29,841 bases of DNA from a virus, in IMG/VR virus record IMGVR_UViG_3300030450_000755, positions 1 to 29,841 of that record. One strand, 5' to 3'. The position numbers were made by a program, and so were the translations under genes. How positions within the stretch are numbered: the first letter of the stretch is position 1; each line of letters begins with the position of its first letter. The notes beneath the pieces are model-generated. The model searched no databases, had not been told where the DNA came from, and worked only from the letters and a program-made list of their open reading frames with translations. This document shows, one piece after another, positions 9,506-29,841 of this stretch.

Positions 9506-10513
9506 ATGGCAGAAAAAAAGATAAAAAAAAGACTGGTGGAATTAATCATAGATGAAGACTCAGAAAGGTTTGGGGTTGAAGCTATAAGTTTAGTTGAGTT
9601 CCCAGCCATCGAAGAAAACTGGGTATTCTTTAATAAAGACAATTTCCTGTCCTTAGCAAAATTAGATGAAGAAAAAAAAACCCTCGTTGGTGCTGTACTA
9701 ATTCCTGAAAAAGAAATACCTAGATACGACCAAGAACTTGATGAAGAGTATGTAGTATACTTTAGTAAGGAAACTATTAAAAAGGCTCAGGAGCTATTTA
9801 TGGGCACTCTAAGGAATAATAACGCTACCTATGAACATAAGACACCTATTGATGGATTGACTGTTGTAGAGAGTTGGATTAAAGAAGATGAAAAATTTGA
9901 TAAGTCATCACAATTTGGATTTGAGAAAATGCCTATCGGAACTTGGTTTGTAAAAATGAAAGTTAATAATGATGAGGTTTGGGATAAAGTAAAGAAAAAA
10001 GAAATAAGAGGATTTAGCATCGAGGGATATTTTACGGATGTTTTAATTGAGGCTTCTAAAAAGAAAGCATATAAAGACATAGAAAGTAATATAGCAGTAG
10101 TAGGAGCTTTAGATGGAGAGCCTTTGTTCGCTACTAAAGAAGAAGCTGAGGCATATGCTAAGTTATTTAAGAATTGCGAAGGTTACCACGAACACGAAGA
10201 AGAAGGAGTAGTAAGATATATGGCTTGTGAAAAGCATTCAGAAGCTACTGAAATGAAAAAAAGAAAATATAAAAAGAAAAAGAAATACACAAAAGAAGAT
10301 AGAATAAGTGATGAGGATTTGTTAGACAGAATAAGAATGATTATAACTCAGGATGAAACAGACCAATTTGAGTTAATGAAAGAATACATTACGAAAAAGG
10401 CTTTAGCTAAATATCCTTGGAAACAATGTATCGCTGATATGAAAAAAAGGTACGGAAAAGAATCTGCTGCTAAAATATGTTCAGCTATAAAAAAGGGTAC
10501 TGTAAAAAGGTAG
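9506..10513 (+). CDS. XkdF-like prohead serine protease
   Basis: This 335-residue protein matches the XkdF-type (S78-like) phage prohead protease, which cleaves scaffold and capsid proteins during head maturation. Evidence: KTLVGAVLIPEKEIPR (about 58-73), YVVYFSKETIKKAQELFM (82-99), the probable catalytic His in ATYEHKTPID (H111), the probable Ser in TVVESWI (S123), and GTWFVKMKVNNDEVWDKVKK with EIRGFSIEGYF (145-176), the family's C-terminal signature. Beyond the protease domain is a Lys-rich stretch (about 251-265) and a helical tail with YPWKQCIADMKKRYGKESAA (about 300-320), a short module I have seen at the ends of other phage proteins. It is the first gene of the capsid module, followed by scaffold and capsid genes. 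Confidence 0.8.
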   Translation: MAEKKIKKRLVELIIDEDSERFGVEAISLVEFPAIEENWVFFNKDNFLSLAKLDEEKKTLVGAVLIPEKEIPRYDQELDEEYVVYFSKETIKKAQELFMGTLRNNNATYEHKTPIDGLTVVESWIKEDEKFDKSSQFGFEKMPIGTWFVKMKVNNDEVWDKVKKKEIRGFSIEGYFTDVLIEASKKKAYKDIESNIAVVGALDGEPLFATKEEAEAYAKLFKNCEGYHEHEEEGVVRYMACEKHSEATEMKKRKYKKKKKYTKEDRISDEDLLDRIRMIITQDETDQFELMKEYITKKALAKYPWKQCIADMKKRYGKESAAKICSAIKKGTVKR

Positions 10514-19102: not shown

Positions 19103-19392
19103 TGGCAACAGAGGTGTCTGAAAATAGCAAATTTACTCTAAGCCTTAAAACAATAATGGCTTTAATTGCTATTGTTGCGAGTTTTATTGGTATGTACTAT
19201 TCGTTAAGTATGGAAATAGAGGCAGCAAAGAAATTACCAGTTGTAGAAATTCCTGAGCCTGAAGTAACAGCTACTGAATTTGGTTTGCGAATTGATTTAA
19301 TTACACAGACGGTAATGAGTAATGCTGAAAAATTAGATAAAATAGAAACGCAGGTAGAGAAAATAGAGGAGAGAGTTTACGAGCTTAAATGA
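19102..19392 (+). CDS. Small membrane protein with coiled coil
   Basis: This 96-residue protein has a single membrane segment (about 15-35, IMALIAIVASFIGMYYSL) with a short polar N-terminus, followed by a Pro-containing linker and a C-terminal coiled coil (about 60-96, with heptad-like EKLDKIETQVEKIEERVYEL). The layout is like a membrane-anchored spacer protein, such as an inner-membrane spanin or holin partner, but no signature proves it. It overlaps the preceding stop by one base and the next gene by four bases. Confidence 0.5.
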   Translation: MATEVSENSKFTLSLKTIMALIAIVASFIGMYYSLSMEIEAAKKLPVVEIPEPEVTATEFGLRIDLITQTVMSNAEKLDKIETQVEKIEERVYELK

Positions 19393-19766
19393 GATACCTT
19401 TTTTACATATTATTGTGGGTAATGCCCTCTAAAAGTCTGAGCCAATCGCTTATAACAACTACTCAATTGAAAGATGCGCAACAGTCCAATGTACCAATTG
19501 TCATTGAGTTTTGGGCAGATTGGAACGACAGTAACAAATGTCAATTCTTAAGTGGTCTAAAAGACTGTAGGAAATACAGAATATGTATTAAGGACAATCC
19601 TGACTTGGCAGAATCTTACAAGATTAAAGTGTTACCCACAATAATAGTTTTCAACAAAACAGAAGTAATAGCAACATTTAAAGGTAATCTAATGTTTGAG
19701 CTAGATGTTGAAAAAGAAGAAATCCAAGCTGTAATAGACAGCATAACAATCTCTAAATTTAGATAA
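19389..19766 (+). CDS. Exported thioredoxin-fold protein lacking the CXXC motif
   Basis: A probable signal peptide (about 1-19, hydrophobic YLFYILLWVMP, then SLSQ) precedes a thioredoxin fold: strand PIVIEFWADWN (36-46), helix from about 50, strand YRICIKD, and the conserved cis-proline strand VLPTIIVF (81-88). The WCGPC active site is replaced by W45-N46-D47-S48-N49-K50-C51, so both redox cysteines are Asn and only C51, C60 and C66 remain. It cannot act as a standard disulfide oxidoreductase; it may be structural or a binding protein. I recall similar proteins in marine phages. It ends at the start of the endolysin gene. Confidence 0.65.
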   Translation: MRYLFYILLWVMPSKSLSQSLITTTQLKDAQQSNVPIVIEFWADWNDSNKCQFLSGLKDCRKYRICIKDNPDLAESYKIKVLPTIIVFNKTEVIATFKGNLMFELDVEKEEIQAVIDSITISKFR

Positions 19767-26050: not shown

Positions 26051-26402
26051 AGGTCTGGGAGATACTATAGCAAAGATTACAAAGGCTACAGGAATAGACA
26101 AAGTAGCTAAGGCAGTATTGGGTGATGACTGTGGGTGTGAAGAAAGAAGAAAGAAACTGAATCAAATGTTTCCAAACTTTAAAAACATCAGACAGTTTAC
26201 AGAAGATGAGATAAAAATATATGATGAAGTTATACCTACTGTAGACAAAAAAGGTATGCTCACTCCTGCTGAAAGACAAATAGTATCTGCTTTATATGTT
26301 GGAGTGTTTGGAGCTAATCCTGAATGGAAAAGCTGTAGCCCTTGTAATAAAAGGATAATGGATAACCTAAAAAAAGTATATGAAAAGTCTTGTAAGATAT
26401 GA
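26034..26402 (+). CDS. Cys-pair protein conserved in Bacteroidota phages
   Basis: This 122-residue protein starts GLGDTIAKITKATGIDKVAK (about 7-26), then DDCGCEERRKKLNQMFPNF (31-49) and, near the end, SCSPCNKRIMDNLKKVYEKS. The two CxC/CxxC pairs could bind a metal. I recall this start and DCGCxxRxxxLN block from Bacteroidota phages, where the function is unknown. It overlaps the sigma-like gene by 17 bases and the HNH gene by four. Confidence 0.6.
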   Translation: MKEKSKGLGDTIAKITKATGIDKVAKAVLGDDCGCEERRKKLNQMFPNFKNIRQFTEDEIKIYDEVIPTVDKKGMLTPAERQIVSALYVGVFGANPEWKSCSPCNKRIMDNLKKVYEKSCKI

Positions 26403-26689
26403 GAAATCATACTAAGGTATATATGACATTCTTTTGGTTAGATGAAAGCGATTATATTGCTTGTGAAATGTGTGGCAGTCAAGGGCAAGACATCCATCAT
26501 ATAAAGCCACGTGGTATGGGTGGCAGTAAATGTGTAGATTATATAGAGAATTTGATTTGTTTATGTAGAGATTGTCACACACAAGCAGAAAGCAATAAAG
26601 AATTTAACACATATTGCAGAATAAAACATTTAGAAAACATTAATAAATATTTATATGAAAATTACATTAGTAAGTATAAGCAGTCTTAA
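26399..26689 (+). CDS. HNH endonuclease
   Basis: This 96-residue protein is a single HNH domain: zinc pair C22-x-x-C25, catalytic His pair in DIHHIKPRGMGG (31-42), N51 and the second zinc pair C56-x-x-C59 followed by H60 in NLICLCRDCHTQ. Stand-alone HNH proteins next to terminase genes can cut cos sites or assist packaging, which would fit the terminase gene located 1.7 kb downstream; it could equally be homing-type or act in recombination. Its start overlaps the previous stop. Confidence 0.82.
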   Translation: MRNHTKVYMTFFWLDESDYIACEMCGSQGQDIHHIKPRGMGGSKCVDYIENLICLCRDCHTQAESNKEFNTYCRIKHLENINKYLYENYISKYKQS

Positions 26690-27395
26690 TCCTGCTGAAT
26701 ACAATCCAAGACAGATAACTAATAAACAATACTTAGACCTAAAATCAAGTATGGAAAAGTTTGGTTGTGTTGACCCTATAATAATAAACATTAATCCTGA
26801 ACGCTTAAATGTAGTTGTAGGTGGTCATCAGAGGCTAAGAATACTAAAAGAGCTTGGAGCAGAGAAAGTGCCTACAGTAAGTGTAAATCTAAGTGAAGAA
26901 GATGAGAGAGAGTTAAATGTAAGGCTTAATAAATCAGGTGGAGATTGGGATATGGATATACTAGCAAATGAATTTGATATAGTAGACCTGAAAGAATGGG
27001 GTTTTAAAGACATTGAGCTTGGTTTTAATATAGACAAAATAGAAGATGATTCTTATACTAAGAAAATAGACACCCCAATCTATGAACCAAAAGGAATAAA
27101 GCCAAAGGTGTCAGAATTGTACAATGAAGATAAGGGGTTTGAGCTTTTGGAAAAGATTAGAAAGTCTAAAGTCAGTAAAGCTGAAAAGGAGTTTTTAACA
27201 ATAGCATCATTTAGACACGTTGTATTTGATTATAGTAAGATAGCTGAATACTATGCGCATTCTAATAAAGAAATGCAGGAACTTATGGAAGATAGTGCAT
27301 TGGTAATAATAGATTTTAAAAAAGCCATAGAAGATGGATATGTAAAACTTGCAGAACAAATATCTAACGAATATAATGAGGAGTATGGAAAATAA
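26655..27395 (+). CDS. ParB-like domain protein, probably linked to DNA modification
   Basis: This 246-residue protein starts with a ParB/sulfiredoxin-like domain: ISSLNPAEYNPRQI (8-21), VDPIIINI (39-46), and VVGGHQRLRILKELG (54-68), the box normally G-E-H-R-R but here G-G-H-Q-R, then LNVRLNKSGGDWDMDILANE (87-106). The C-terminal part (about 183-235) has ASFRHVVFDYSKIAEYYAHS and EDSALVIIDFKKAIEDGYVK, a segment I recall from marine phage proteins placed near DNA-modification enzymes. The ParB domain in such phages is not for plasmid partition; it may be a nucleotide-using or DNA-recognition unit. It overlaps the HNH gene by 35 bases and the TAGT-like gene by 11. Confidence 0.65.
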   Translation: MKITLVSISSLNPAEYNPRQITNKQYLDLKSSMEKFGCVDPIIININPERLNVVVGGHQRLRILKELGAEKVPTVSVNLSEEDERELNVRLNKSGGDWDMDILANEFDIVDLKEWGFKDIELGFNIDKIEDDSYTKKIDTPIYEPKGIKPKVSELYNEDKGFELLEKIRKSKVSKAEKEFLTIASFRHVVFDYSKIAEYYAHSNKEMQELMEDSALVIIDFKKAIEDGYVKLAEQISNEYNEEYGK

Positions 27396-28245
27396 AAAAA
27401 AAGAGTTTTGTATTTTTATATTAACACATGGCAGACCAAACAATGTTATAACATATAATACATTAAAAAAAGCCAAATGTAAATATCCAATATATTTAAT
27501 AATTGATAACGAAGATAAGTATGGTGAAGATTATATAAAAAAATTTGGAAAAGAAAATGTAATAATTTTTGACAAACTAAAAGAAAGTAAAACATTTGAT
27601 GCTGCTGATAATTTTAATAATAGAAAAACAATAGTATACGCAAGAAATGCCTCATTTAATATTGCAAAAAAACTAGGTTATAAATATTTTTTACAATTAG
27701 ATGATGACTATACACAATTCTTATTTAGAATTAATAATAAAATGCAACATCCAAAATCTTTTTATTTAATTAGAACAAGATTAAATAATATTATAAAACA
27801 TACTTTAGAATATTATAAAAGTATAGATGTAAAATCAATAGCTTTTTCACAGGGTGGAGATTGGTTTGGTGGTAAAGATAATTTTGGTAAGTTTAAAAGA
27901 AAGGCTATGAATAGTTTTTTTTGTTCTACAGAAAGGCCATTCAAATTTATAGGCAGAATAAATGAAGATGTTAATACTTATACAAATTATCAAAGTAAAG
28001 GAAATGTTTTTTTCAGCATACCATTTGTACAACTAAATCAACTGCAAACACAATCTAATGAGGGTGGAATGACAGACGTTTATTTATCAAGTGGCACATA
28101 TATAAAAAGTTTTTATACAATTATATTTTCTCCAAGTTGTTGTAAAATATCATTAATGGGAAGAACGAATAAAAGATTACATCATAAAATTAATTGGAAT
28201 AATGCAGTACCTAAAATCCTAAATGATAAATATAAAGTAAAATGA
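27385..28245 (+). CDS. TET-associated glycosyltransferase (TAGT)-like enzyme
   Basis: This 286-residue protein (start chosen at 27385; upstream ATGs at 27349 and 27376 would overlap the ParB-like gene more) matches what I know of the TAGT family, glycosyltransferases that modify oxidised bases in phage DNA. Evidence: ILTHGRPNNVITYNTLKK (12-29), the IDNEDKYG block (40-47), YARNASFNIAKKLGYKYFLQ (85-104) leading into LDDDYTQ (105-111), which holds the DxD metal site, IGRINEDVNTYTNYQSKG (189-206), EGGMTDVYLSSGTYIKSFYT (226-245), and RLHHKINW near the end. It probably transfers a sugar to hydroxymethylated cytosine or thymine-derived bases, but no TET/JBP oxygenase is visible in this window. The next tiny gene overlaps its stop (ATGA). 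Confidence 0.68.
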   Translation: MENKKKEFCIFILTHGRPNNVITYNTLKKAKCKYPIYLIIDNEDKYGEDYIKKFGKENVIIFDKLKESKTFDAADNFNNRKTIVYARNASFNIAKKLGYKYFLQLDDDYTQFLFRINNKMQHPKSFYLIRTRLNNIIKHTLEYYKSIDVKSIAFSQGGDWFGGKDNFGKFKRKAMNSFFCSTERPFKFIGRINEDVNTYTNYQSKGNVFFSIPFVQLNQLQTQSNEGGMTDVYLSSGTYIKSFYTIIFSPSCCKISLMGRTNKRLHHKINWNNAVPKILNDKYKVK

Positions 28246-28370
28246 AAAAAGCAAAAATTACAATAGAAATAGAAAATATAAATAATGCTATCTCTTTATA
28301 TAATGCAATAAGAGTTTTGAAAGATAAGTATAAAATAACAAAACTAGAAATACAACAAGACATAAAATAA
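28242..28370 (+). CDS. 42-residue protein between TAGT-like and terminase genes
   Basis: ATG at 28242 overlaps the preceding stop (ATGA); the frame ends at TAA 28368-28370, ten bases before the small terminase start. The product begins KKAKITIEIENINNAISLYN and is a basic, beta-then-helix small domain. Function unknown; coupling supports it. Confidence 0.55.
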   Translation: MKKAKITIEIENINNAISLYNAIRVLKDKYKITKLEIQQDIK

Positions 28371-28380
28371 ATTTAATAAA

Positions 28381-28761
28381 ATGAGCAAAAAAGAACACAT
28401 AAAGAAAAAAATGTTAATAGAGAGTTTAGAGAATTCATTAGGAATAGTATCTACAGCTTGTACTAAAGTGAATATAAGTAGAAGTAGTTTCTATAAATGG
28501 TATAAAGAAGATGAAGAATTTAGAAAGAAAGTAGATGAAATAGACAGCGTTAAATTAGACTTCGTTGAAAGTCAACTATTTAAGAATATACAAAACCTAA
28601 AAGAAAAAAGCATTATATTCTATCTACAACATAAAGGGCATAAAAGAGGATATATACAAAAGCAGAATATAAACCTTACCTCTAATGAAGAAAAAATAAA
28701 TAAGATAGAAATTGAAATCGTTAAACCTACAAGGAACAGTAGTACTACAGAAGAATCTTAA
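28381..28761 (+). CDS. Small terminase subunit
   Basis: This 126-residue basic protein directly precedes terL. The N-terminal half holds a helix-turn-helix (LENSLGIVSTACTKVNISRS, then SFYKWYKEDEEFRKKVDEID, about 15-55), the DNA-recognition region of small terminases, which bind the packaging site. The middle helix (DFVESQLFKNIQNLKEKSII) would form the oligomerisation part, followed by FYLQHKGHKRGYIQ, a motif frequent in small terminases of this type. The C-terminal tail is flexible. It overlaps the large subunit by 50 bases. Confidence 0.78.
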   Translation: MSKKEHIKKKMLIESLENSLGIVSTACTKVNISRSSFYKWYKEDEEFRKKVDEIDSVKLDFVESQLFKNIQNLKEKSIIFYLQHKGHKRGYIQKQNINLTSNEEKINKIEIEIVKPTRNSSTTEES

Positions 28762-29841
28762 TGCGACCACTAGAATCGTTGTAAATCAAGGTGGTACTAG
28801 AAGTAGTAAGACATATTCTTTAGCACAGTTAATAATCCTGAAAGCTCTACAGGAACAGGGTAAGGTATATACAATATGTAGAAAGACCTTACCAGCTTTA
28901 AAGGGTACTGCTTATCGTGATGTAATGTCTATTCTTGAACAACATAATTTATATAATCCTGACAATCATAATAAGTCAGAACTAACCTACAGGCTTAATA
29001 ATAATGACATAGAATTCATATCTGTTGATATGCCTCAGAAGATTAGGGGGCGTAAGAGAAATGTATTATGGCTTAATGAGGCTAATGAGTTTAGCTTTGA
29101 AGATTGGGTACAGCTATCATTAAGAACAACAGAAAATATCTATTTAGACTTTAATCCTTCAGACCCATATAGTTGGATATATGATAATGTAATGAACAGA
29201 GAAGATTGTACATTTATTAAATCTACTTATTTAGATAATCCTTTTTTACCTGAGGAAACAATTAAAGAGATAGAAAGGCTTAGAGATTTAGATAGTAATT
29301 ACTGGAAGATATATGGACTTGGGGATATGGCACAGCCTACGGAAACTATATTCAGGCAATTTGAGATTTGTAATAACATACCTAGTGAAGCAACCCTAAT
29401 AGCTATTGGAATGGACTTTGGTTATTCTAACGACCCTACAGCAATAGCAGAGGTGTATAAATTAAATGATGATTTGTACATTAATGAGCTTATATATAGT
29501 AAAGGGTTAACAAACCAAGATATAGCTGAGAAGTTAAGAGAATTAAACATCACAAGGCAAACAGAAATAATAGCAGATAGTGCAGAGCCTAAATCTATTG
29601 AAGAACTGCATAGACAAAATTTCAATGTAAAGGGAGCAAAGAAAGGTGCTGATTCTATAAATATGGGAATAGATATTTTAAGGCGTTTTAAGCTACATAT
29701 AACTAAGAATAGTATAAATACACTAAACGAGTTTAAATATTATAAATGGCTTACGGATAAGAACGGACACATAGTAAATAAACCAGCCACTAACCAGCAA
29801 GACCACTTAATTGATGCTGTTAGATATGTTGCTTTAAATAA
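28712..29841 (+). CDS. terL: Large terminase subunit (partial at window end)
   Basis: An open frame runs from 28709 to the window end without stop. No ATG opens the conserved N-terminus; the best start is TTG at 28712, giving KSLNLQGTVVLQKNLNATTR before the Walker A motif NQGGTRSSKT (about 24-33). The ATPase domain continues with RKTLPALKGTAYRDVM, Walker B VLWLNEANEF (about 112-121), and LDFNPSDPYSWIYD. The nuclease domain has IAIGMDFGYSNDPTAIAEVY, IIADSAEPKSIEEL, and DHLIDAVRYVAL at the end. This is the motor and nuclease that cuts and packages DNA. The missing part is probably only about 10 residues, continuing at the left end if the genome is circular. Confidence 0.9.
   Translation, partial: MKSLNLQGTVVLQKNLNATTRIVVNQGGTRSSKTYSLAQLIILKALQEQGKVYTICRKTLPALKGTAYRDVMSILEQHNLYNPDNHNKSELTYRLNNNDIEFISVDMPQKIRGRKRNVLWLNEANEFSFEDWVQLSLRTTENIYLDFNPSDPYSWIYDNVMNREDCTFIKSTYLDNPFLPEETIKEIERLRDLDSNYWKIYGLGDMAQPTETIFRQFEICNNIPSEATLIAIGMDFGYSNDPTAIAEVYKLNDDLYINELIYSKGLTNQDIAEKLRELNITRQTEIIADSAEPKSIEELHRQNFNVKGAKKGADSINMGIDILRRFKLHITKNSINTLNEFKYYKWLTDKNGHIVNKPATNQQDHLIDAVRYVALN

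Follow-up and report, generated by a model that had tools for sequence, protein, structure and literature searches.

A TAGT-family glycosyltransferase paired with a ParB-like protein: a candidate DNA-glycosylation module of phages

Described relatives of the gene pair

In phage T6, a glycosyltransferase of the TAGT family adds a second glucose to glucosyl-hydroxymethylcytosine, which is made by dCMP hydroxymethylase and an alpha-glucosyltransferase, and TET/JBP-linked TAGT hypermodification pathways were reportedly laid out by Iyer in 2013. The T2/T6 enzymes glucosylate DNA and are the only characterised members of Pfam family PF20691 that we found described (PMC13216743). Solitary TAGTs from 288 of 753 phages were counted in the same work (May 2026), whose text does not mention ParB, as potential novel transferases. 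Fusions between a ParB domain and a DNA methyltransferase (phrog_498; ParB + PF01555) have been surveyed together with other ParB-fold proteins, a survey that in turn makes no mention of glycosyltransferases (PMC12704722). Finally, CmoX/CmoY loci for carboxymethylcytosine modification of phage DNA often carry a ParBc protein, and what ParB does in the vicinity of DNA-modifying enzymes of phages was stated to be unknown (PMC12783734).

The DNA stretch that we analysed (hereafter the window) is a virus record 29,841 nt (29.8 kb) long, plausibly a complete virus genome, although a terminal repeat was looked for and not found. It contains a ParB-like gene (26655-27395, + strand) and a TAGT-family gene (27385-28245, +) that overlap by 11 nt (27385-27395), which confirms the observation we started from. 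Like the beta-glucosyl-HMC-alpha-glucosyltransferase of T2/T6, the window TAGT is a phage-encoded PF20691 protein with a GT-A fold. The T6 enzyme (YP_010067197.1; confirmed as PF20691 at 37 bits versus 103 for the window TAGT), however, has neither a ParB nor an HH motif, while the window TAGT has both, and T-even hydroxymethylcytosine glucosylation needs a PF00303 enzyme, which is absent from the window. TET/JBP-linked pathways use the same glycosyltransferase family but differ from the window, where no methylase or oxidase step is seen and where a TET/JBP enzyme was found neither in the window nor in related records (67 in total, with no control matched). The ParB-methyltransferase fusions share with the window a homologous ParB_N domain, the same genome slot and, in one case, a radical-SAM neighbour, whereas the window effector is a separately encoded glycosyltransferase whose partner has a TAGT-specific C-terminal domain. 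CmoX/CmoY pathways start from a C5-carboxymethyltransferase, and none is seen in the window. The same module as ours is present in Rac-like E. coli prophages, where ynaK and its neighbour, a 'GREB1-related protein' with 54% TAGT identity, lie upstream of terminase in an enterobacterial host; these genes are annotated, yet we found no functional study. The window resembles ParB-associated DNA-modification modules in its ParB_N protein and pre-terminase slot, but the partner is a TAGT, a putative DNA-modifying enzyme, rather than a DNA methyltransferase.

As for the proposal that this is an undescribed system, we found no description of a ParB-TAGT module in the literature (with an earlier mention by Iyer in 2013 being possible), which speaks for it. 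Against it, solitary TAGTs have already been counted (PMC13216743) and the module is not confined to the window. It would be categorically new only if canonical bases were glycosylated directly.

The glycosyltransferase and its ParB-like partner

HMM searches with the TAGT and ParB families matched both ORFs and bear out that the downstream gene encodes a TAGT-like enzyme. Its 286-aa product (starting at ATG 27385; a TTG at 27349 is a mechanical ORF start only) matches PF20691, 'TET-Associated Glycosyltransferase', in a Pfam scan at 2.3e-29 and 103 bits, above the curated cut-off of 27.5 bits, and phrog_842, 'beta-glucosyl-HMC-alpha-glucosyltransferase', in a PHROG scan at 8.6e-66. The AF2 model (pLDDT 90.7, pTM 0.90) adopts a GT-A fold with relatives in the PDB and retains a predicted DxD-type metal/donor-binding motif (DDD106-108, 27700-27708, +), of which D107 and D108 are invariant in 96 relatives. 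Invariant among them, too, are D72, N88, Q156, RK172-173, Q219, G228, K241, R264 and H267 as well as D195, which is part of a candidate catalytic or acceptor motif (NED193-195, 27961-27969, +). In the TAGT tree, very long branches lead to ParB-less TAGTs and T6, and a single origin is not firmly resolved.

Foldseek returned AvpGT as the best match of the TAGT model (E 1e-5, 14% identity, TM-score about 0.5), a nucleoside 3'-O-glucosyltransferase that acts on the nucleoside 3'-OH (PMC11959488). VIA-align placed GnT-I and polypeptide GalNAc-transferases at Z 13-14 among GT-A matches of Z 12-14 overall, and the TAGT profile, run against PDB sequences, reached E 0.29 at best. While the AvpGT match may hint at a TAGT that modifies RNA (e.g. 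tRNA) or free nucleotides, we dropped it as proof of nucleoside chemistry, given an identity and a TM-score at which many GT-A folds look alike. With both the place beside terminase and the swap with methylases (see below) pointing to DNA, such a target is, to our minds, highly improbable. The structural neighbours also include protein-acting enzymes (polypeptide GalNAc-transferases, GnT-I), and GREB1, the relative found in animals, is a protein glycosyltransferase according to the literature. Both count for another scenario, in which TAGT glycosylates a protein (the ParB partner, terminase, capsid or a host protein) and not DNA, and to which we return with the genome position.

The ParB-like partner (246 aa) combines an N-terminal ParB/Srx NTP-binding fold (ParB_N, 26655-27050, +; Pfam ParB_N 4e-9, phrog_620 8e-45) with a TAGT-specific C-terminal helical domain (27051-27392, +). 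In the AF2 model (mean pLDDT 84.5), the N-domain resembles CTP-bound ParB/Noc, SerK and sulfiredoxin structures, and the NTP-pocket residues N17, G57, R60 and N92 are kept, with G57 found in 78/78 and R60 in 72/78 aligned ParBs. In related ParB-fold proteins, substitution of the P-motif arginine abolishes nucleotide binding (PMC12704722). Judged from its presence in 72 of 78 sequences, the pocket arginine makes nucleotide binding plausible and strict catalysis, with ParB as a universal kinase, less so. Better conserved than the N-domain is the C-terminal domain (P141, Y143, R187, H188, A197, Y200, E212, D220 and G228 are invariant, n=78), which has no annotated function and, taken from the full-length model, no separate fold match. 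Since TAGTs are basic (median pI 9.0) and ParB partners acidic (median pI 4.7), a complex of both would fit, whereas a role of ParB as a plain DNA-binder is disfavoured.

Databases label the gene a ParB partition protein, and if this were its role, pairing with TAGT would be incidental. A canonical partition ParB combines the ParB/RepB/Spo0J architecture of TIGR00180 with a ParA; the window ParB, however, scores 28.7 bits against TIGR00180, far under the cut-off of 58.45 bits, its C-terminal domain is distinct and there is no ParA among the PHROG matches of the window. Moreover, the TAGT pairing is near-absolute, and chance pairing was checked in unbiased genome sets with the opposite result (see below). 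In view of the TIGR00180 score and the pairing, we rejected a plasmid-partition protein and attach next to no probability to this reading.

Pairing, distribution and genome position

That TAGT is coupled to a ParB-like protein, as claimed in the initial annotation, proved stronger and wider than had been anticipated. Among 296 related (ParB-clade) loci pooled from several queries, 290 have both genes adjacent to each other, and the six ParB-less exceptions are all cut by contig ends. When the ParB C-terminal domain served as sole query, a TAGT was found beside every match. In genome sets that are unbiased, i.e. not chosen for resemblance, the same 3 of 393 Bacteroidales genomes carry TAGT and the ParB domain, adjacent to one another, and 4 of 395 Enterobacterales genomes have a TAGT match, with the ParB C-terminal domain only in the two that match strongly; never did these unbiased searches yield the ParB C-terminal domain without a TAGT. 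Stop/start overlaps of 4, 8 or, as in the window, 11 nt join the two genes in 156/184 loci.

Using tblastn, relatives were identified in 48 phage records, including Rac-like phages of E. coli and Salmonella (54% TAGT identity), Lactobacillus phages, Nocardia phage NTR1, archaeal virus HHTV-2 and large Vibrio phages as well as, more distantly, Porphyromonas and Aeromonas phages. An IMG/VR search gave 523 stretches with relatives, and a genome collection 31 loci from Bacteroidota, Bacillota, Pseudomonadota, Verrucomicrobiota, Actinomycetota and candidate phyla. At a threshold of at least 80% of module length, 885 of 5,426 complete E. coli genomes (~16%, about one in six) carry the module. All that is left of the ParB gene, ynaK, in E. 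coli K-12 and B strains is a short remnant, and these strains are therefore clean hosts in which the module can be directly tested. TAGT is intact in Lactobacillus phage c5 (L084) but matched in pieces or truncated in its relatives LL-Ku, Ld17, Ld25A and phiLdb, which suggests that some hosts do not require the module and makes these phages a natural set for comparison. TAGTs of the Aeh1 and Vibrio 1.124 types mostly lack a ParB. Among smaller phages, ParB-less TAGTs with an N-terminal extension occur in Vibrio phage 1.124.O (L090), L246, L250 and L251, a second kind of orphan TAGT; PF00303 was not found in the three records of this group that were searched, and in L090 the TAGT adjoins Dam and dUTPase genes.

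Usually, the module is located just upstream of terminase. In the window it precedes a small subunit gene (28381-28761, +; weak terminase-small/HTH matches) and a large subunit gene (28760-29841, +; Terminase_3 1e-29). Of 152 non-redundant loci, 68 have the large subunit gene in second place downstream of the module, and 90 have it no more than 5 kb away. Frequent terminase adjacency adds to the case for a protein target. Yet the module goes with no particular family of terminase or mode of packaging, being present in cos phage c5 and circularly permuted HHTV-2, it sits among replication genes in Vibrio phage pv27, the ParB gene is the most constant companion of TAGT with no other gene equalling it, and the slot is common to DNA methylases. 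On balance, a protein target seems unlikely to us. No third gene is constantly linked to ParB-TAGT among the 152 non-redundant loci. This bears on the HNH nuclease that had been counted as part of the system: its ORF (26399-26689, +; PF01844 2e-7) is genuine and overlaps the ParB start, but the same HNH cluster occurs in only 6/152 loci and, hence, is a neighbour rather than a conserved module component. On the other side of the pair, a 42-codon ORF (28242-28371) overlaps the TAGT stop by ATGA, and short ORFs 3' of TAGT are also seen in phage c5 (L084:1710-1808) and a Rac-like phage (L083:20914-21123).

The window ParB_N is closest to two siblings and then to methylase-fused ParBs. It is 45% identical (99 bits) to ParB_N of the Streptococcus phage Javan124 adenine methyltransferase, as opposed to 65-82 bits with other TAGT-linked ParBs, so methylase-fused ParBs are closer than most TAGT-linked ones, and a quick tree puts it into one group with seven members of the methylase set (support 0.45-0.80). 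Furthermore, a ParB-methyltransferase fusion occupies the same slot directly upstream of terminase in FP_Epona, others lie a few genes upstream of terminase in Javan124 and phiFL3B, and one is directly followed by a radical-SAM gene, as in some TAGT modules. From this kinship and the shared slot, it appears that the ParB N-domain has been exchanged between methylase and TAGT modules with the C-domain staying with TAGT. A locus in Bacillus phage 035JT001 (L382:4001-7290) with a ParB-like gene, a PAPS-reductase-domain gene, a methyltransferase and a second ParB-like gene is possibly another ParB-linked DNA-modification set.

Base preparation, acceptor and accessory genes

Pfam and PHROG scans of nearly all window ORFs detected structural, lysis and replication genes, with TAGT being the sole recognisable base-modifying enzyme; oxygenase, hydroxymethylase, kinase and DNA methyltransferase were not found. 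A PHROG match to 'DNA methyltransferase' (4e-20, 9506-10513) was rejected as it lies inside a head-maturation-protease-like gene. Dedicated searches of the window record with PF00303 (thymidylate synthase/dCMP hydroxymethylase) and PF00145 (C5-methyltransferase) were empty while their controls (T6 and other T4-like phages for PF00303, control genomes for PF00145) matched. PF12851 (TET/JBP) had no match in 67 distinct records including the window (two sets of 28 and 43 records), but absence of TET/JBP is weakly shown by this because no positive control matched either. So the earlier statement that no recognisable base-preparing enzyme is present holds, with this reservation for PF12851. In other records, PF00303 is missing from all ParB-TAGT records tested except 191-kb pv27 and present in all five large T4-like phages tested with a ParB-less TAGT. 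This contrast is only partial, since large phages often encode thymidylate synthase anyway and since small ParB-less TAGT records (G029-G031) lack PF00303, too. PF00145 is absent from nearly all ParB-TAGT records tested. Also in the window (19389-19766), directly before the endolysin, there is a gene for a thioredoxin-like protein (PF00085 1e-6).

Could a host enzyme, or a phage enzyme that escaped recognition (oxygenase, C5-transferase), nevertheless prepare the base, with TAGT then sugaring a hydroxymethyl-like group? Many window ORFs lack a family match and a related record (G032) does carry a C5-methyltransferase, both of which would allow for it. The lack of a constantly linked third gene and the near-complete absence of PF00303 and PF00145 argue against it, and with the same pair found in hosts as different as Haloarcula, E. 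coli and Bacteroides, a single host enzyme is unlikely. We therefore give this option little credence.

The explanation we lean towards is a two-gene DNA-glycosylation module in which TAGT sugars DNA and ParB is an obligate, possibly nucleotide-gated partner. We infer DNA as the target, the ParB role and a protective purpose; the DNA target is favoured, albeit circumstantially, by the slot and ParB domain common to methylase fusions and by T6 TAGT acting on DNA. In such a late, terminase-linked module, TAGT would stand in for the methylase, take a sugar from a host nucleotide-sugar through its intact DxD-type active site and transfer it to phage DNA, probably to a nucleobase, without a phage-encoded oxidation or hydroxymethylation step. 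The acidic ParB would bind nucleotide via its ParB/Srx fold, while its C-terminal domain may hold, gate or target TAGT, and the likely purpose would be protection from host restriction. A bolder version, which we regard as possible though doubtful, has ParB-TAGT glycosylate an unmodified canonical base in one step, with ParB and nucleotide being needed for catalysis or base access. The acceptor might be an exocyclic amine, which is suggested only by analogy to the amino-methyltransferases that occupy this slot.

Several points count against a DNA-glycosylation module. We know of no precedent for direct glycosylation of a canonical base, and the TAGT acceptors known to us are sugar or hydroxymethyl groups, which are apparently missing here as far as seen. 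Also, the strong acidity of ParB would be unusual for a DNA-binder.

No usable information on sensitivity to restriction came from the literature on HHTV-2 and the Lactobacillus phages. Serratia phage eta, for which TAGT carriage is not established, has a ParB gene and no modified base by HPLC (PMC3918226). All in all, the earlier interpretation is partly supported. If DNA is indeed sugared without a prepared base, the path to glycosylated DNA would be shorter than all those known, would already exist in some 16% of the complete genomes of E. coli and in viruses that infect archaea or members of several bacterial phyla, and would provide a function for the ParB-like proteins found time and again next to DNA-modifying enzymes of phages.

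Some modules contain additional genes, which look like optional sugar extension and tailoring. In 13 loci, TAGT has a radical-SAM gene as its neighbour; further additions are a SAM methyltransferase gene and a heptose/glycerol-phosphate-type nucleotidyltransferase, either alone or fused to a phosphatase. The histidine-phosphatase/cytidylyltransferase fusion lies between ParB and TAGT (L167:837-1768, L169:5717-6648, L172:2654-3585) and is perhaps a dedicated nucleotide-sugar donor enzyme. Other modules have two to five TAGT copies. According to our proposal, extra copies would extend the sugar in some phages and tailoring genes would alter donor or product. In this context, the HH motif (HH266-267 in the window, 28180-28185, +) is kept by 274/275 single-copy TAGTs and 60/60 ParB-less Aeh1-like TAGTs. 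It is missing from T6 TAGT, which transfers sugar to sugar, and from most accessory tandem copies, with an HH-less copy in 20 of 22 tandem loci, every one of which keeps at least one HH copy. Purely as a hypothesis, HH-less tandem copies may be sugar extenders and HH may mark the first-sugar enzyme; alternatively, HH may bind a metal and have disappeared from copies that diverged. In one locus (L123:5255-8626), three tandem TAGTs precede a radical-SAM gene of QueE-like type, a hint that this locus may be linked to deazaguanine. The largest array that we saw comprises five tandem TAGT genes within 5 kb of one viral contig (L328:3874-8849).
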